Shown: one piece after another, positions 5,960-40,835 of the stretch
Numbering within the stretch: the stretch's first letter is position 1
Layout of the letters: the number at the start of each line of letters is the position of its first letter
The notes under the pieces: generated by a model
What the model was told of the DNA's origin: nothing
The model's input: only the letters and a program-made list of their open reading frames with translations
Databases searched by the model: none
NCBI GenBank assembly: GCA_028583605.1
Contig: CM053336.1
Coordinates: 22,677,004-22,741,003 of the forward strand
Direction: 5' to 3'
DNA: 64,000 nt
Source of the DNA: Dastarcus helophoroides
Lineage: Eukaryota; Arthropoda; Insecta; Coleoptera; Bothrideridae
Translations under genes and position numbers: made by a program

Positions 5960-8810
5960 AAATAAACTCTACGCAATGACAATCAGTGTTATCTGATAAA
6001 TCTGTAAAACAAAATATAAGTCATAAAATAACTATAGCAAATCTCAACGTTCAGAGTCTACTTAACAAATTTGACGAATTAACTATATTCCTTAACGACA
6101 AAAAAAGATATTCTTTGCCTAACCGAAACTTGGCGGACTTCCGAAATTGTGGAAAGTTTACATGTACCAAACTATGTTATAATTCTAAGCAACACATTTT
6201 CTCGAAAAGTTGAAACATGGAGGCGTCGCAATCATAACAAGAAACATTCTAAAATGTAAAAATATTGTGCTGAATAATTTTATGGCAGAAAAAACTTTTG
6301 AAATCATTGGCACTGCAATTGTACAAATCAACGCAATGGTTATAATTATCTATAGAAGCCCTAATGTAGACTTATCTACATTTTTCGATAATATGGAAAA
6401 TTTATTGATCGCAGTAACCACCAAATACAAAAAAAAATAATTTACATTGCAGGTGATTTCAATAGCAACATTATGGAACTAACAAAAGATACAATTACTG
6501 TTTTAAATATAATGGCTGAATTTGCTTTACATCCTTGCTTCCGAGAGGCATCCAGAGTTACTCTTCCTGTTAATGCATAGACAATATATTTTCTAATAAA
6601 ACTAAATACCGCCTTAAAACTATCGGCCCTCACATATCGGACCATAAAGCTCAGTGTCTGTTCTTATGTAACAAGAAATTTGGAGGATCATCTCGAGACA
6701 CTCTAAAAGTACACCGTGTTTTTAATAAAAGGAACTTGGATCTCCTAAAGCAGAATTTGTATCTGATAGACTGGAAATACATAATGGATATAAAAAATGC
6801 ATTCTCTGCCTTTTTTCAAATCTTTAATTACGAATTTAATTTAACTTGTCCAGAAACAACAGTTCGTCAGAAGCATAATACGAAGACATTAAATTGGTAC
6901 ACTAAAGAGTTGCAATTAATAAAATTTAAGCTAGGCGCTATGAAAATTATAGGGAGAGCAACTAAAGATGATCAACTTCGTCTTTCATATAAAAATATGA
7001 GAAAAGATTATCAACAAAGTATTTCTGCATCGTGAATGCCGAAGACAAACCAAGAGCTATTTGGGATGTTATAAAAATGGAAACGAGAAGCAAATCGCAT
7101 GTTGGAAAACCAGACATCACCCCAGAAGATTCTAGTACCTTTTTTTCAGAGATTGGCAGTCGAACACAACATAAAATTTCCCCATCTAGGCTTACAGCAG
7201 ATCATTACTTGTCTCATTTAAGACATTCCGCTATCAATTCCATTTATTTCAAAAAAGTAGATGTTTAAGAAGTACGTACAATCGTTAGATCATTAAAGCC
7301 AAAAAAATCAAAAGATATTTATGGACATCCCACCATTATGCTAAAGCATATACTAGAGTCGATCGAAATCCCATTAACACTGCTACTAAATAAGTGTTTA
7401 TACCGAGATATTTTCCCATCAAAATTCAAATTAGCAAAAGTAGTGCCACTACATAAGAAAGGATATATAAATTAACCAGCAAATATCGACCCATATCCAT
7501 TTTGCCAATCTTTTCTAAGATCTTGGAAGTAGTTTTAAAAGAGAGACTTACTGATTACTTTGAAAAATTTAGTATACTTAATAGCAATCAACATGGTTTT
7601 CGAAACTCCAAGTCTACTACTACTGCTCTGATTGATATCACTGAATATCTTTTAAATACCTTGAATGAGGGTTTAATTTGTCATATGGATTCCTGTGATA
7701 TCAGCAAAGTATTTTACCCTGTTGATATTCAGATTCTCCTAAATAAACTACATTTTTATGGAATAAGAGGAATAGCCTGAAAATTAATAAAGTCATATTT
7801 TGAAGGAAGGTTTCAAACGGTTACTTTAAATGGCAGTACTTCGCAAATAAAGCAAATAATTTGTGGGGTGCCCCAAGGATCAGTGCTAGGCCCTTAAATG
7901 TTCCTACTATACATAAACGTCTTCCCAAAAAATTTAAAATGCTCAAAAGTGTTGTTTGTCGATGACACAAGCATTTTGAATAAGGAAAACAATAATAATT
8001 TAAAATCTATTTCAAGTCTATCTGAAGCAGAAAAATGGTTTGCAGCAAATACAATGCTCTTAAATATTGATAAAACACAATCGATAGTCTTCACAGCTAA
8101 TGCTTTGTCCGTAAAGGCGCGACTAAAATTCCTAGGAATATACTTGCAGCAAAACTTAAAATGGAATGAGCAAATAATTACTCTCACTAGCCGTTTATCC
8201 AGTACGGTATATTCAGTGCGACGTCTACTGCTAATTGGAACATTTGAATCTGCTTTGATGGCATACTATGGAAATTTTCACAGTCTACATATGGAATAAT
8301 CATCTGGGGAAACAACCCATTAAGAGATGAAGTCCTAAAACTCGAGAAAAAATGTGTACGTCTACTATCCAGAGTTGCCTATGCAGCAAGTTGTAGAAAT
8401 TTATTTAAAAAATTAGGTATACTTACTGTTACATCTCTTTATGTAATTGCCTGTGTAACATATGTGCACGAAAACAAATCTAAATTTCTACGGAATAATG
8501 ACTTTCATTCAGATAATACTAGATGTAAGGAGAAACTGATGATCCCCTATCAGCGTTTGCATTCAGCATTTCAAGGAGTAAACTCGATTAGCTTGAAATT
8601 ATATAACGCAGTCCCAGATGAATACAAATTACTACCAATTATTTCGTTAAAAAAAAGATTTAAGTCAATCTTATTACAGAGGACTCTATATAATATTAAT
8701 AAATTTGATGAAAATTGTATATAATTAAACATTATTATATGTACATAGAGTTGTTCTGACAATCCATGTAAACATCGATGGAAAAAATATATTATTATTA
8801 TTGGATATTT
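5960..8810 (+). pseudogene. decayed non-LTR retrotransposon (EN + RT, CR1/Jockey/I-like)
   Basis: Relic of a LINE ORF2 with many stops and frameshifts. In order it shows endonuclease pieces: ITIANLNVQSLLNKFDEL near 6030, a GGVAIITRN stretch near 6215, IIIYRSPN near 6345, IAGDFNSN near 6450 and a SDHKAQ box near 6637. Reverse transcriptase follows: a FSKILEVVLKERL/NQHGFRNSKSTTTAL block at 7502-7640, GVPQGSVLGP near 7867 (followed by a TAA stop) and FVDDTSIL near 7958, where the usual Y/F-ADD has become FVDD. C-terminal remnants run to about 8724. The 3' end is a short ATT run (ATATTATTATTATTGG, about 8789-8804), an expected kind of LINE tail. Non-functional. Confidence 0.8.
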
Positions 8811-33904: not shown

Positions 33905-36081
33905 TATTGTCAAGGTGGCAAATGTCTATAGTGCATGGCACCTACCACCGATCACAGTGAGGAGAAAGTAGAAGAATTCTACTCTCAGATTAAGGATCTC
34001 ATAAAGAAGCTGCCTGAACAAGAACTCCTTATTTTGATGGGCGACTTCAATGCCAAGATAGGTAAAGGTAGAGAAGGAAAATACATTGGACCTCATGGGC
34101 TTGGTTTTAAAAATACAAGGGGAGCAAATCTCGGTGTATTTGCATTCGAATATGACCTGGTAATAATGAGCACCTTCTACAAGCCGCCGGGCAGACGACT
34201 ATATACTTGAACTTCTCCTAGAGAAGATGGGGAAGACCATATCAACCAGATAGATTATATCGAAGTAAATCAAAGATATAGAAACAGCTTCACAAGCGTG
34301 AAAACATACCCGGGCGCAGATAGACAGTCAAACCACAACCACTTCTCGGAGAATATAGGACAAGGTTCAAGATTTTACGTAAAACAAAACAACCAAAATA
34401 CAATATTAAAAAACTTAAAAATGACACAGTAAGGAACCAAGTAAAGAAAGATATCAACGACAAGTGTAGGCTGATTGAAGAGAAGATTGACAACACGGAG
34501 GAACAAATAGTAATATGTGATGAAAAAACGGAGTGAAACACACGGAGTGAAATCCCGACACTCATGGAAGAACGGAGAAAATAAAAGATCAGCCCCTCAA
34601 CATACAGAAATATACAAATGGACATACAAAGGAAAATCAGGGACGCCAAACAAAAAGACATAGCTAAGAAATGCTAAGAAATGCTAAGAAATAGAAGCCT
34701 TGCAAAGCAGATTCGATGAGTTTAATGGACACAAGAAGGTAGGAGAATTTACAGGTAGGCTAAAAAAAACGGTGGGAAAACTTGTAAATGATGCATGAGA
34801 GCTGATAGTGGACAGAGAAGATGTAAGGGATTCTTGAAGGAAGTACATAGAGCAGTTGTTCTTTGATGGGAGAAGAGAGCTACCACCCATTCAAGTTGAG
34901 CCAGGACTTTTATCATGAGATATAGGGTTAAAGCTGCCATTAATACTTTAAAGGAAGGAAATACTCCGGGACCAGATGGAGTACACTCGCAATTCTTCGG
35001 GCTTGTTAACGATGAGCCCATTAGGTTCCGGAATGGCATTTACAATTCTGGGAAATCCCAAAAGAATGGCTCATCTCATTTATAATGTTACCAAAGAAAC
35101 AGGGAGCCAAAGCATGTGGTGACTACAGAACAATTAGTCTTATGAGTCACATGTTAAAGCTGTTTCTTAAGATTATTCATCGAAGAATCTGCAGAATCTG
35201 GAAGAAGAGAGTGTCACACACACACAATTTGGTTTTATGAAAGGCATGGGTATGAGAAACGCACTTTTTCGTCTGTAAGTACTATTTCAGAGCTGTAGAG
35301 ATGCGAACTGTGACTTTTTGCATGTTTTGTCGACTACCAGAAGACTTTCGATAGAATAAAGCTCGAAAAAATGATGGAGGTCTTGAGAAATACGGGGATG
35401 GATGACAAGGATCTGAGGATCATCCAAAACTCTTACTGGAATCAGATAGCTACTATTAAAATTAATAAGGAAGAGCAAACCAATGCAATAATCATTCTTT
35501 GAGGAGTTAGGCAGGGTTGTATTCTTTCGGCACTTTAATCTTTTAATCTTTACTCAAAGAAAATCTTTAAAGAGGCACTTGAGAATACCGATATAGGAAT
35601 CCTGCTAAATTGTGAACGAATAAATAATAACCGATACACGGATGATACTGTGGTTTTTACTGACAGCATAAACAACTGGCAAGAGCTAATGAACAAAATA
35701 AAAGATGTTGGTAGTAACTATGTCTTAGGGGACTTTAATGCTCAGACCAATAGATTTGAACATTTATTAGATTCGAAGTTTGGAAACCATATACCGGTTT
35801 CGATCTTCTTAGATTTCGTCAGTTTGGTATATCCAACTTGAATGCTAACAAATGTTCCGACAAGTAAGTACTAAAGAATTCACGGACGTCAAGCGTGTGA
35901 CTTCAGTACTACCGTCATCTATTGGTCCATAGAGAAACTATGGCCATCGCCAACAATGTCGTATGGCTTAGAGATTAACAGTAGTAAAACCAATTCATGG
36001 TAATTATTAAAGTAAGGGGTGAAAGACACGACCTAATGGTCAACAACACACAAATAGAGAGAGTTCCATAGTTCATTTACT
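33905..36081 (+). pseudogene. RTE-type LINE, 5' part (EN + RT), split by a younger LINE
   Basis: Starts inside the endonuclease: APTTDHSEEKVEEFY, then LLILMGDFNAKIGKG (about 34,030) and HINQIDYI. Continues with a linker, then RT blocks: CGDYRTISLMSHMLKLFLKI (about 35,117), DYQKTFDRIKLEKMMEVLRN, GVRQGCILS and the catalytic box YTDDTVVFTDS (35,638-35,668), a variant of YADD. About 230 bases of unrelated sequence (about 35,712-35,940) follow, then SYGLEINSSKT and NNTQIERV. It breaks in FIY at 36,081 and resumes at 40,226. Many stops. It resembles the insect endonuclease-RT family often annotated as CFDP2-like (RTE clade). Confidence 0.78.
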
Positions 36082-36171
36082 GAATTTTCTGGGCCGATGT
36101 GACATTAAACATAAACCCGTATGTACTGGTTTTAAGTGAGTGGCTGTACCACAGAACTTTTCAAAAAAATA

Positions 36172-37158
36172 ATGAAGGGGACAAGAGGAGCAAAAGCTAG
36201 TGAGCAAGTAGTGACGTGCGAATGCACGGGTATGACGGAAATTCTTGAAAAAATAAATAAAAAACTGGATTTGTGTTATGAGATTATTGATAAACAAAGC
36301 AAACAGATAAATGATTTACAAAATGAGATCAGGGAACTGAAACCAATGAAGATATGTAATGAGAGGCCTACACCGATGTACTCTGAAGTTACAAAGAAAT
36401 CTGAACATATTCTCGTAATAAAGCCGAAAAATACTCAAGAAGTAGACAAAGTTAAAAAAGATCTAAGAGCAAATATAAATCCAACAGAGTTACAAGTAGG
36501 AGTAAATATAGGAAAGAATGTACGTGAAGGTGGTGTTATAGTAAAATGCTCCGACTCAGGTGCCCTCAACACACTAAGAGAAAATATTGAACACAAAATG
36601 GGAAAGCAGTACAAAGTAGAAGTACCAAAAAGGGTTAATCCAAAGATCATTATTGTTGGAATAGATGAAGAGGAATTCAAGAATAACAAGAATGAAATAA
36701 CTGAAAAAATTATTAAACAAAACAAAATTCTCAGAGCTGATCATTTTATATTTGAAGCTATTGCATGTACCAAAATTAATAAAGGAAATTTTAATATAAT
36801 TGTTGAAACAGATCCAACTACTTTTGCATATTTAATGTCCAAAGAAGAGCAAAATCTGCATGTAGGATGGAGGAATTGTAGGATGTTTGAACATTTTAGC
36901 GTAAGAAGATGTTTTAAATGTGCGGGATATGGTCATGAAGCAAAAAACTGCAATGAAAATGTTACATGTGTATTTTGTGCCGAGAGTCATACAAGAGTTA
37001 ATTGTAGGAATGAAGAAGCGAAATGTATAAATTGTGTGAAGGCAAATAAAAAATTCAATCTTAATTTAGACTCTAGTCACGCGGCTACTGATAGGAAATG
37101 TGAGTGTTATATTAAGATTATTGAATCCATTAAAAAGAAAACTGCATATACCATATAG
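36172..37158 (+). CDS. non-LTR retrotransposon ORF1 (gag-like, zinc knuckles)
   Basis: 328 residues from the first in-frame ATG (36,172). A frame extending upstream to 36,136 has only a GTG. The N-terminal region is coiled-coil-like (LEKINKKLDLCYEIIDKQSK and following). The middle is an RNA-binding-like domain (VGVNIGKNVREGGVIVKCSD). The C-terminus carries CCHC knuckles: CFKCAGYGHEAKNC (Cys247, Cys250, His255, Cys260), then CVFCAESHTRVNC and CINC...HAATDRKC. Such ORF1 proteins bind element RNA and form RNPs. The frame ends at TAG 37,156-37,158 and is followed in the same frame by ORF2 with no intervening stop (see the readthrough site). Confidence 0.87.
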   Translation: MKGTRGAKASEQVVTCECTGMTEILEKINKKLDLCYEIIDKQSKQINDLQNEIRELKPMKICNERPTPMYSEVTKKSEHILVIKPKNTQEVDKVKKDLRANINPTELQVGVNIGKNVREGGVIVKCSDSGALNTLRENIEHKMGKQYKVEVPKRVNPKIIIVGIDEEEFKNNKNEITEKIIKQNKILRADHFIFEAIACTKINKGNFNIIVETDPTTFAYLMSKEEQNLHVGWRNCRMFEHFSVRRCFKCAGYGHEAKNCNENVTCVFCAESHTRVNCRNEEAKCINCVKANKKFNLNLDSSHAATDRKCECYIKIIESIKKKTAYTI

Positions 37159-37164
37159 CAATTA
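37150..37164 (+). promoter_or_regulatory. candidate stop-codon readthrough site TAG-CAATTA
   Basis: The ORF1 stop TAG (37,156-37,158) is followed directly by CAA TTA, an exact match to the UAG-CARYYA context known to promote ribosomal readthrough in tobamoviruses and alike. The downstream frame is ORF2 and is open from 37,159 to 39,999. No in-frame ATG occurs until 37,435, which is already inside the endonuclease domain. Confidence 0.7.
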
Positions 37165-40002
37165 CTAAACACAAATGGCATATTTTTAACTTTCTTCAAT
37201 GCTCAGAGTTTTTATAAAAATAGAGATGAAATTCTAAATTATGTAAATAATTATCAGCCAAATTTACTATGCCTAACCGAAACATGTATAACAGAAAATA
37301 TATGTGATAGTGAACTAAACATAAAATACTATACTTTACTTCGCTGTAACTCAAGTAGTCGACATACTGGAGGGGTGGTAATATATATAAAAAACAACAT
37401 AAAATTTAGTAACGTCAAAACATATATAATTGATATGAAACTCTGGCTACTAGCTGTTAAAGTCTATGTAAATAACGTTCCTTACTGTATAGTTACAATC
37501 TATCGATCTCCAAGCTGTAACCCAAATATATTCTTAGATAAATTTTATGAGTGGTTAGACTCTTACTTGGATAGTAATAAAAGCAGTAATATAATTATCG
37601 TTGGAGATTTTAATATAAATTGGTGTTCAAATAATTCTGTTAAAAAGAACCTTAAATCCAATATGCAAAATAGAGGGTTAAAACAGTTCGTCAAAGAATT
37701 CACGAGAACTACGAATATTAGTAAAACGTTAATAGATTTAGTAATAAGTAATGATTACACATTAAATGTATATGTAGAACAGGACTATATTATTACGGAC
37801 CATTCCATAATTCAAGTTAAATTAAAGCAAAATGAACATGTAAATAAATGTGTAACTATGCTCAGTAGGGGTAAAATAAATTTTGATGAAATGACAGAAC
37901 TGTTGATTAAAAAAGAATGGGAATATAGTAGCACAAATGTTAATTTAGTTAGTGAAGTTTTTATAGAAAATATCATTTTTTCATTAGATAAAGTGGCTCC
38001 AATAAAGGAAATTAAAGTTAAATCTAAGCAAAATTCATGGTTTGATAAAAAATGTAAAGAAACTGTAGTAAATAAAAACAAGGCATATAAAAAATATTAT
38101 TTTACTAGAGAGGAAAGCGATTGGGATAATTATAAAGTATGTAGAAATAATCTTGTCAAAGTGATACGAAATGCAAAGTGTAATTTTTACAAGAAAATGA
38201 TCGATGACAATAAGAAAAACAGTAAGCAAATGTGGAAGCACTTAAAGGAGATGGTTGGTAATAAAAATCAAACGATTAACAGTTTCCAAAATGGGGTAAG
38301 TTGTAACGGAACATTATACAACAATAATGATGAAATACCAGATGTATTAAATAAATACTATATAGGCAGTATTAAGGCTATAATTACAAGCATTGATTCT
38401 AATAACGTAGATAGAAACAATATATTGAATACTATATCGCAATATGAGTGTACAATGTCAACTTTTGCTAAAATATCGTTGCAAGACTTATATAAACTTA
38501 TAAGTAGCCAAGTTAAAAATTTCAGTACTGACGAAATAAGTTTACCTATTGTAAAAAATTTGTTTCACGTCCTCGGATATCCTTTTGTAAATTTGATAAA
38601 CCTAAGCTTAGAGATGGGAATTGTGCCAGAATGCTTCAAAATATCAACTATAAGACCTATACCTAAAGTTGTAAATACAAATCGGGCTGAAGAGCTGCGG
38701 CCCATAAATATGCTGCCCTTTTGCGAGAAAATCCTAGAACAGGTAGTCTTTAATCAAGTTATGAAGTATATAAACATTAACAACGTTTTATGTACCTACC
38801 AATCGGGATTTAGAGGTAATCATTCATGCGAAACTGCTCTTCAGTATGTTATTTCAGAATGGAAATATAAAATTGATAAAAAACGCTTTGGAGTATGTGC
38901 AGTTTTTATTGATCTAAAAAGAGCATTTGAAACTATAGATCGAGATATTTTGTTACTGAAACTTAAAAAATATGGATTCAAAGAAAATGTGTTAAAATGG
39001 TTTAAGAGTTATCTGTCTAATCGCTATCAATGTACCAAAATAGGAAATACTAAATCTTCATTGGAAACAAATAACTTTGGAGTTCCTCAAGGAAGTGTAT
39101 TAGGGCCGCTATTATTTATATTATATATGAATGATATAGGAAATGTTCTAAAGAAATGTAGAATTCATCTCTTTGCAGATGATACCCTAATATATTATGC
39201 GCATGATGATTTTAATGAATTAATATCTACTATGAATGAGGAACTTAAAATGTTTACAAATAAATTTAAATGTAACAAACTAAAAGTAAACGAACTGAAA
39301 TCTAAATGGATGTTCATAAGTAACAATTACTGGTATAATATATTTAACGAATTAAATTTAAAAATTGAAATAAATGATCAAAATGTAGAGCAGGTAGACC
39401 AAATAAAATATCTAGGTTTTACAATTGACAGAGAACTAAAGTTTACAAGTCATATAGATTATATTTCAAAGAAAATTGGCAAAAAAATTGGATTTCTAGG
39501 CCGAGTAGTTCCCTATCTAACAACTTCGACTAGATTAATGGTTTACAATACTTTGATATTGCCTCACTTTACTTATTGCTGCTCTGTATTATATGTTACT
39601 TGCACAAATTTTGATAGATTACACAAGTTACAAAATAAAGCAATGAGAATAATATTAAAATGCAATAGATACACTAGTATTCAGACTATGCTAAATTTGT
39701 TGAACTGGATTAAGATTGAAAAGTATTATTTTGTCCAAACAATGATATTTATTCATAAAATGAAAAACGATGCATTACCGGAATATTTAAAAAATCAGTT
39801 AACTGTAGTAAATGAAAGACACCTCTATCCAACTAGGTCGGCCCTTAACTTTTATATTCCACCAACTCTAAAGAATGCCACAATGAATAGCTTGTTTTAT
39901 AAAGGTATCAATCAGTACAATCTTCTTCCTCAAAATCTTAAAGATACTAATAGCATTAAAGTATTTGGAAAAAATATGAGAGACCTTGTTAGACAGACTT
40001 AG
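37159..40002 (+). CDS. non-LTR retrotransposon ORF2 (endonuclease-reverse transcriptase)
   Basis: 947 residues counted from the codon after the ORF1 stop. The APE-like endonuclease begins at once: FLTFFNAQSFYKNRDEI (catalytic Asn region), NLLCLTET (catalytic Glu), VTIYRSPS, IIVGDFNIN at about 147-155 and TDHS at about 213-216. Reverse transcriptase follows: STIRPIPK, LRPINMLPFCEKILEQVV, YQSGFRGNHSCETAL, AVFIDLKRAFETIDRDILL, GVPQGSVLGPLLFILYMNDI from 641, and LFADDTLIYY with the catalytic FADD at 672-675. A C-terminal region with ILPHFTYCCSVLY runs to the TAG at 40,000-40,002. No internal stop, so probably competent. It is CR1/Jockey/I-like by RT motifs; exact clade not assigned. There is no ATG upstream of the endonuclease core, so expression as an ORF1-ORF2 readthrough fusion (1,276 residues) is likely. 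Confidence 0.9.
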   Translation, partial: QLLNTNGIFLTFFNAQSFYKNRDEILNYVNNYQPNLLCLTETCITENICDSELNIKYYTLLRCNSSSRHTGGVVIYIKNNIKFSNVKTYIIDMKLWLLAVKVYVNNVPYCIVTIYRSPSCNPNIFLDKFYEWLDSYLDSNKSSNIIIVGDFNINWCSNNSVKKNLKSNMQNRGLKQFVKEFTRTTNISKTLIDLVISNDYTLNVYVEQDYIITDHSIIQVKLKQNEHVNKCVTMLSRGKINFDEMTELLIKKEWEYSSTNVNLVSEVFIENIIFSLDKVAPIKEIKVKSKQNSWFDKKCKETVVNKNKAYKKYYFTREESDWDNYKVCRNNLVKVIRNAKCNFYKKMIDDNKKNSKQMWKHLKEMVGNKNQTINSFQNGVSCNGTLYNNNDEIPDVLNKYYIGSIKAIITSIDSNNVDRNNILNTISQYECTMSTFAKISLQDLYKLISSQVKNFSTDEISLPIVKNLFHVLGYPFVNLINLSLEMGIVPECFKISTIRPIPKVVNTNRAEELRPINMLPFCEKILEQVVFNQVMKYININNVLCTYQSGFRGNHSCETALQYVISEWKYKIDKKRFGVCAVFIDLKRAFETIDRDILLLKLKKYGFKENVLKWFKSYLSNRYQCTKIGNTKSSLETNNFGVPQGSVLGPLLFILYMNDIGNVLKKCRIHLFADDTLIYYAHDDFNELISTMNEELKMFTNKFKCNKLKVNELKSKWMFISNNYWYNIFNELNLKIEINDQNVEQVDQIKYLGFTIDRELKFTSHIDYISKKIGKKIGFLGRVVPYLTTSTRLMVYNTLILPHFTYCCSVLYVTCTNFDRLHKLQNKAMRIILKCNRYTSIQTMLNLLNWIKIEKYYFVQTMIFIHKMKNDALPEYLKNQLTVVNERHLYPTRSALNFYIPPTLKNATMNSLFYKGINQYNLLPQNLKDTNSIKVFGKNMRDLVRQT

Positions 40003-40187
40003 AGCATATTTTACCCTAGCATCCTATAATGTCTTCAAGTCGTTTTAATCATGCTTTTAAATAAATTATTTGTAATTTAGATATTAAGTTTTAATGTGTC
40101 TTTTAAATTTTATTGTTATGTATGTACAATTTACTAATTATTGTTTATTTAATTAAATTCATGAGTATTGTATTAGATTATTTTCTA

Positions 40188-40196
40188 AATAAAATA

Positions 40197-40230
<34 letters not shown>
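40188..40230 (+). repeat. polyadenylation signal and (CTTA)n LINE tail
   Basis: AATAAA at 40,188-40,193 is followed within a few bases by about eight CTTA units. A simple-repeat tail rather than poly(A) is typical of CR1- and I-like elements. Confidence 0.75.
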
Positions 40231-40231
<1 letters not shown>

Positions 40232-40835
40232 GGGAACCATGATCAACGAGAAGTGGGACCTCTCACAGGAGATCAGGTGCAGAATAGAGAAAGCAAGAAC
40301 AGCGTTCAACCAAATGGCTAAATTGTTTAAAAGTCACAACCTCAATATCAATATCAAAATCAGAATACTCTGATGCTATATTTTTTGGGTACCCTTCTAT
40401 AGGATGGAGTCATAGATATTAATCGAGCCAACACAAAGAAGACTTGAGGCCTTCGAAATGTGGCTTTATAGAAGGATGTTAAAAATTTCATGGGCGGAAA
40501 GGGTGACCTATAAGACAGGGATGGAGAGAATGAAGAAGGACTTAGAAATAATTAATATCATCAAGGGAATAAAACTTGAGTAGTTCGGACACATTATGCG
40601 GAACGAAAGCAAGTATCGCAAGCAAAGTATGTTCTCCAGGGGCAAGTTTATGGTAAAAGAGGACCAGGAAGGAGAAGAATATCATGGCTTAAAAACTTGA
40701 AGACATGGTTCTCAAAAACTACTATCGAATTATTCAAAGCAGCCGTGAACAAAGTCATCATGTCCAGGATGATCGCCAATATTCGGAACGAATAGGCACT
40801 CGAAGAAGAAGATAGTGCATGTGTCTGTCTATATG
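40226..40835 (+). pseudogene. RTE-type LINE, 3' part (continuation)
   Basis: Resumes LGTMINEKWDLSQEIRCRIE, KARTAFNQMAKLFKSH and NIKIRIL; after frameshifts it gives FEMWLYRRMLKISWAERVTY, FGHIMRNESKYR, RRISWLKNLKTWF and NKVIMSRMIANIRNE before a stop at about 40,792. These are the usual C-terminal blocks of this insect LINE family. Degraded. Confidence 0.78.

Follow-up and report, generated by a model that had tools for sequence, protein, structure and literature searches.

A candidate stop codon readthrough signal between ORF1 and ORF2 of non-LTR retrotransposon families in the genome of Dastarcus helophoroides

How non-LTR retrotransposons make the scarce reverse transcriptase (RT) of their second open reading frame (ORF2) is known for few elements and is debated for L1. 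Among stop codon readthrough signals, type I signals need no downstream structure, whereas in type II signals UGA stands before CUA or CGG, and a stem-loop usually starts approximately 8 nt 3'. CARYYA readthrough in viruses and readthrough of UGA-CUA are both established, and the tobamovirus context is A-UAG-CAA-UUA (PMC3542737). In human cells CARYYA drives readthrough with UAG similar to UGA, all six of its nucleotides are reported to matter, and UGA-CUAG is an efficient leaky context (PMC4132726). In a Drosophila mRNA, glutamine is inserted at a UAG that precedes C (PMC8417969). Gammaretroviruses are known to use gag-pol readthrough, and frameshift or bypass has been suggested for HeT-A, TART-B1, and LINE (PMC5009743). 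The LTR elements Tca2 and VdLTRE5 have a leaky gag stop, without CARYYA according to the extracts of the source (PMC3441728). Described routes to ORF2 of non-LTR elements are reinitiation, which SART1 is known to use and which has been proposed for L1, and 2A StopGo in trypanosomes and sea urchin (PMC5972666). A term search found no mention of readthrough in the extracts of PMC2881922 or of the Hebe paper (PMC2861651), and no readthrough of this kind in a non-LTR element was reported among the matches listed from open-licence full texts, a scope that leaves subscription journals and Repbase Reports aside.

We analyzed a window, i.e., a whole stretch of 64,000 nt of the Dastarcus helophoroides genome, which contains a copy of an element referred to here as family A (Table 1). 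The copy is an APE-type non-LTR retrotransposon: ORF2 encodes an endonuclease and an RT, 5'-truncated copies occur, and the element has a simple-repeat tail. The window copy is itself slightly truncated at its 5' end, and three near-identical copies (L010, L013, and L015) extend further upstream. PF14529 also matched in ORF2, and no Pfam match to RNase H was found there at E 0.01. The stop-to-stop frame of ORF1 spans 36136-37155 (340 codons), no Pfam family scored over the cut-off in it, and Cys/His clusters that resemble zinc knuckles by eye lie near its C terminus. The protein collection held eight ORF1 homologues (P0055-P0062), the nearest four of which are 48-56% identical. Since these four (P0055-P0058) all terminate at the residue homologous to the end of ORF1 in the window, we take the stop of ORF1 as a genuine end of the protein.

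Table 1. Features of the family A copy in the window (position 1 is the first letter of the window).
Feature	Position	Strand	Basis
Non-LTR retrotransposon copy, family A	36076..40231	+	blastn of the region against fetched genomic copies
ORF1, gag-like, 328 codons from ATG	36172..37155	+	ORF reading; homologues P0055-P0062
ORF1 stop TAG with A before it; candidate site of readthrough	37156..37158	+	sequence, copies, family comparison
CAATTA, 3' readthrough hexamer (CARYYA; equals tobamovirus CAA-UUA)	37159..37164	+	sequence, families; motif per PMC3542737 (extract)
ORF2 frame, 947 codons, same frame as ORF1	37159..39999 (to 40002 with stop)	+	ORF reading
Out-of-frame ATG, 16 nt behind TAG	37175..37177	+	sequence; absent in L026, L028
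AP-like endonuclease domain, ORF2 residues 13-215	37195..37803	+	PF03372 match
Reverse transcriptase domain, ORF2 residues 510-756	38686..39426	+	PF00078 match
(TTAC)n 3' tail	40198..40231	+	sequence; TTAC ends also in 18/20 other copies

The sequence-only reading of this window had described ORF1 and ORF2 as lying in the same frame with an exact UAG-CARYYA context between them, 947 open codons after the stop, an endonuclease core within approximately 15 codons, and a first in-frame ATG only after 92 codons, inside the endonuclease. This description holds throughout: the frame is open from stop to stop, the endonuclease match begins at residue 13, and the first in-frame Met of ORF2 is codon 93, within the domain. 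The stop that ends ORF2 is also TAG (40000-40002), followed by AGCATA, which is not CARYYA.

Other RT sequences are present in the window. Judged by eye, translations on both sides of the family A copy (35500-35840 and 40232-40790) look like pieces of another, decayed RT element, with YTDDTVVF upstream and LGTMINEKWD downstream of the TTAC tail, which suggests that the copy inserted into an older element. At 7487-8266 lies a more distant RT remnant, with 30% identity over 286 residues; TAGCAATCA at 7582 falls inside it in another frame and is a chance match.

Of 8268 stop triplets on the two strands of the window, 14 have CARYYA directly behind them (0.0017), as do three of 1558 TAG triplets; CAATTA occurs at 0.00045 of positions, and TAGCARYYA is found three times against 3.74 expected. 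Because TAGCARYYA is not enriched, the evidential weight lies in its position at the junction and in its conservation between families, and not in the motif alone.

We examined family A copies within the window's own genome (538.9 Mb, 50 contigs), the one genome searched here. A junction probe gave 29 matches, from which 20 stretches were fetched. At stop and hexamer, 19 of the 21 family A sequences, including the window, read TAGCAATTA, one reads TAGCAGTTA (L026, TAG-CAGTTA, still CARYYA), and one reads CAGCAATTA (the decayed L028, CAG-CAATTA); L026 and L028 are both older copies. Within the frame parts covered, TAG at 37156 is the only stop, and there is no indel, in six of the 21 sequences (the window, L010, L011, L012, L014, and L015). 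The arrangement belongs to a recently active lineage, since the five otherwise-open copies are 99.86-99.92% identical to the window. The alignment from TAG to the endonuclease has zero net frame change in the copies, except for an extra base behind the junction in L025; L029, which is interrupted just before TAG, was omitted from the count of other stops and indels. The shared frame of ORF1 and ORF2 is a trait of family A. Substitutions among family A copies are spread approximately evenly over the three codon positions, as in decay, and are uninformative on selection. The interruption in L029 is an insert of approximately 5 kb with approximately 10 nt of the junction duplicated on both sides, resembling a target duplication.

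These copies bear on whether the TAG arose by decay in a copy descended from an element in which the two ORFs were fused or differently framed. Copies of non-LTR elements often decay, and in four sequences (L028, L030, L066, and L106) the stop position is indeed occupied by a sense codon. Nevertheless, we consider decay extremely improbable as the origin of the TAG, which is present in 20 of 21 family A sequences, six of them otherwise open over the parts held, and which coincides with the ends of P0055-P0058; at the family level this origin is refuted by the junctions of family A and of the distant families. An indel or nonsense change peculiar to the window copy, an idea raised by the Met positions of ORF2 relatives (P0001, P0004, P0005, and P0006) and by the out-of-frame ATG, is likewise refuted by the genomic copies. 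No natural ORF1-ORF2 fusion lacking the stop was scored among 1647 candidates of suitable length. Viral contigs searched with ORF2 and with the ORF1 alignment returned nothing, those searched with the ORF2 alignment returned one RT fragment (L001) away from the junction, and the genome contig collection gave no match.

Genome searches for distant families gave at least 120 matches with the ORF1 homologue P0055, at least 114 with the ORF1 of family E, and at least 99 with that of family D. A subset of these was read as 20 long stretches, 60 short junction windows, and 2 longer ones, which together with the window and the 20 family A stretches makes 103 sequences (including two duplicates, L055 = L090 and L063 = L091). 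When these were aligned locally to seven family references, 96 of the 103 could be placed in a family; L038, L057, L075, L076, L077, L089, and L109 were unassigned, and L071 ends short of the junction, leaving 95 junctions. UAG-CARYYA was found in 65 of these, 63 as TAGCAATTA and 2 as TAGCAGTTA. The remainder comprised 20 with TAGCCATTA (all family D), one with TGACTAGAA (family F), three with TAG and a single change in the hexamer (CAAATA, CAATTT, and CAATTC, one each, all family B), two that were decayed or cut (L096 and L105), and the four that had lost the stop to a sense codon. Copies inside one family are not independent, and families are the units of comparison here.

Among the unassigned sequences, L057 (reverse strand, approximately 180-600 in read orientation) is a further decayed ORF1/ORF2 type with TAG-CAATTA at its junction. 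Over its last 40-55 residues, the L057 ORF1 shares 36-41% identity with A, B, C, and E, and its ORF2 is 33% identical to B; as a single decayed copy with an earlier TAA and with ORF2 now in a different frame, it was left uncounted. L075, L076, and L077 are ORF1-like, 24% identical to P0055, and end in TAA TCAG. They have no long open frame beyond the stop in the same frame, give no support for readthrough, and are possibly another kind of element or a captured host gene.

Comparison between families separates the junction from its surroundings. Families A, B, C, and E have A-TAG-CAATTA in common, with the nine bases of stop and hexamer 100% identical, while identity is 38.9% in the 12 nt before and 12 nt after, 33.3% in the 60 nt after, and 29% at random for this composition. 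Addition of family D lowers hexamer identity to 93.3%. The families are distant from one another, with pairwise identities of 24-35% for the ORF1 proteins of A-F and 34-43% for the ORF2 proteins of A-D, and an E-T-H-like motif is found at ORF2 codons 37-41 in A-D. The base that precedes the stop is A in families A-E and in the family F reference. UAG directly followed by CARYYA is exact in A, B, C, C' (a chimeric family described below), and E and is absent in D and F. ORF2 is fully open and joined in frame by TAG in A (947 codons), C (L043, 939), C' (L048, 973), and D (L090, 933), so that in these four the frame behind the stop is open, coding, and conserved, as at type I sites. No intact ORF2 was seen in E or F, and the best B copy has one extra stop. 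The stops that terminate ORF2 in A, B, C, C', and D have no CARYYA after them.

The sequence-only reading had proposed to check whether TAG-CARYYA is kept while its surroundings diverge. This was borne out within family A and among A, B, C, and E, with exceptions. The sense codons or other stop contexts that it had listed as contrary evidence do exist: another context characterizes each of families D and F, and individual copies of A, B, and E deviate. Its readthrough interpretation gains support, on sequence grounds, from conservation across copies and across distant families of the same genome.

Could the hexamer be kept for the Gln-Leu residues it encodes, or as an RNA or DNA element unrelated to decoding, with ORF2 expressed independently of it? 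Gln-Leu does stand behind the stop in A, B, C, C', and E, and its codons are common here (CAA is 0.67 of Gln codons and TTA 0.40 of Leu codons). With one family as template, identical Gln-Leu codons in three further families have a probability of approximately 0.02, only moderately unlikely, and codon choice alone is weak evidence. Residues behind the stop matter only under readthrough, however, and Gln-Leu is dispensable, as family D encodes Pro-Leu and family F Leu-Glu at the same place. We regard conservation for these other reasons as very unlikely.

Families D and F depart from the hexamer. Family D has TAG-CCATTA in 20 of 21 sequences (L090, 1504-1512, and 18 further places), outside CARYYA; L090 is intact, and the ORF1s of family D are in many cases 96-100% identical to one another. 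Since all six nucleotides of CARYYA are reported to matter, CCATTA counts against readthrough, and it may be either a variant leaky context or a sign that ORF2 of family D is expressed differently. Of five family F sequences, L040, L112, and L114 have TGA-CTAG, L115 has TGA-CTAA, and L113 is decayed; TGA-CTA thus stands in frame at the same junction in four of five sequences, in copies that have diverged. This is a different known leaky context, and we count it for readthrough. By eye, the ORF1s of D (L090, 238-1503) and E (L091, 3855-4994) have an N-terminal Cys/His region with a PHD/C1 look, for which the D ORF1 alone gave a weak Pfam C1_1 match below the cut-off; the family A ORF1 is without such a region.

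Translation of ORF2 might instead start separately, with ribosomes reinitiating or entering internally at a start site that is non-AUG or lies downstream, the shared frame being incidental. An ATG lies 16 nt past the stop in A and 7 nt past it in B, both out of frame. A conserved frameshifted ATG had been named beforehand as contrary to readthrough, and 18 of the 20 other family A copies retain the ATG at 37175, which the sequence-only reading does not mention; the older L026 and L028 have lost it. Among relatives of ORF2 known as proteins only, separate initiation is possible in P0001 and P0004, because of a predicted Met at the endonuclease start, and in P0005 and P0006, where one lies approximately ten residues before. 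Family G, an abundant family of the same genome read at three loci (L116-L118), looks like an ordinary bicistronic element on its sequence and serves as an internal contrast: an upstream frame, taken as ORF1 without a homology test, is open for 209 codons in L118, ends in TGA TAG, and is out of frame with ORF2, which has an in-frame Met just ahead of its endonuclease. Against a separate start in A-F, the first in-frame Met after the stop is codon 93, 35, 26, 51, 183, and 26 in A, B, C, D, E, and F, respectively; those of B, C, and F lie inside the endonuclease domain, none of the six families has one ahead of it, and family C is without a nearby ATG. No ORF2-frame AUG of the SART1 kind, at or near the ORF1 stop, was found in A-F. 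Furthermore, reinitiation needs no shared frame and leaves the conservation of TAG-CAATTA alone, as well as TGA-CTAG in family F, unexplained. Overall, separate translation of ORF2 appears unlikely.

Downstream RNA structure was not unusual in any of the five families folded, with z values of +0.66 (A), +1.10 (B), +1.23 (C), -0.24 (D), and +1.81 (F, L040), and a stimulatory structure was rejected. The lack of unusual structure after the stop fits type I. Taken together, readthrough is in our judgement very probably how ORF2 is expressed. ORF1 protein would be made by normal translation, with most ribosomes terminating at UAG, and the A-UAG-CAA-UUA context would make this stop leaky, so that a minority of ribosomes continue into ORF2. 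By analogy with known cases, the residue inserted at UAG may be glutamine or tyrosine. The product would be a scarce ORF1-endonuclease-RT fusion that could supply the RT.

The signal is also found joined to another type of ORF2. At three loci (L048, L052, and L086, the latter two read around the junction only), the chimeric family C' consists of a family C ORF1 and TAGCAATTA followed by a family G ORF2. Over the ORF1 part, L043 (C) and L048 (C') agree at 930 of 941 nt, and they begin to differ directly behind TAGCAATTA; the boundary between family C and family G sequence is the first base after the hexamer. C' retains an in-frame Met at codon 15, immediately ahead of the endonuclease, which counts against readthrough. 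Family E has an ORF1 of the kind found in A, B, and C, with an identical signal, and the part of its ORF2 that was read is 35% identical to G and C' and only 22-25% identical to A-D. Since C' and E join it to the other ORF2 type, the signal travels with ORF1 across ORF2 clades. We lean slightly towards the view that, in one non-LTR lineage, ORF1 plus A-UAG-CAAUUA is a movable cassette of gag and leaky stop that has been joined to ORF2s of two RT clades (A-D, and E with C', whose part from G begins exactly behind the hexamer), that one family or more uses a different context (F, with UGA-CUAG), and that readthrough is an old expression mode of the whole group.

If readthrough operates here, one codon and one hexamer would set the RT dose, a simple handle without evident structure, and gag-pol readthrough, a feature of retroviruses, some LTR elements, and RNA viruses, would extend to the non-LTR class. 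C' would then amount to a natural experiment: an ORF2 from an element that lacks the signal was put behind a leaky stop and is now present at three loci. If the cassette view is also correct, the whole non-LTR group would have a retrovirus-like gag-pol stoichiometry.

Of the known systems, tobamovirus type I readthrough has the same A-UAG-CAA-UUA, an in-frame polymerase behind the leaky stop, and no listed downstream structure; the elements described here are non-LTR retrotransposons of a nuclear genome rather than an RNA virus, and the fusion would be ORF1-endonuclease-RT. In MuLV and other gammaretroviruses, UAG likewise separates gag from a pol that shares its frame, and RT is made as a minor gag fusion, but they are LTR retroviruses with a type III UAG-G and a pseudoknot, whereas there is no structure signal here. 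The Candida element Tca2 and the Verticillium element VdLTRE5 are alike in their in-frame gag/pol stop but are LTR elements with UGA and, in the extracts of PMC3441728, without CARYYA. TGA-CTAG or TGA-CTAA at the family F junction recalls OPRL1, AQP4, and alphaviruses (UGA-CUAG/UGA-CUA), which are cellular or viral genes, while the family F copies read are diverged and have no intact ORF2. SART1 (UAAUG) and mammalian L1 share the gag-like ORF1 and the ORF2 with endonuclease and RT; there, ORF2 is a separate protein with its own start, whereas the families described here have a shared frame, a leaky-type stop, and no early in-frame AUG.
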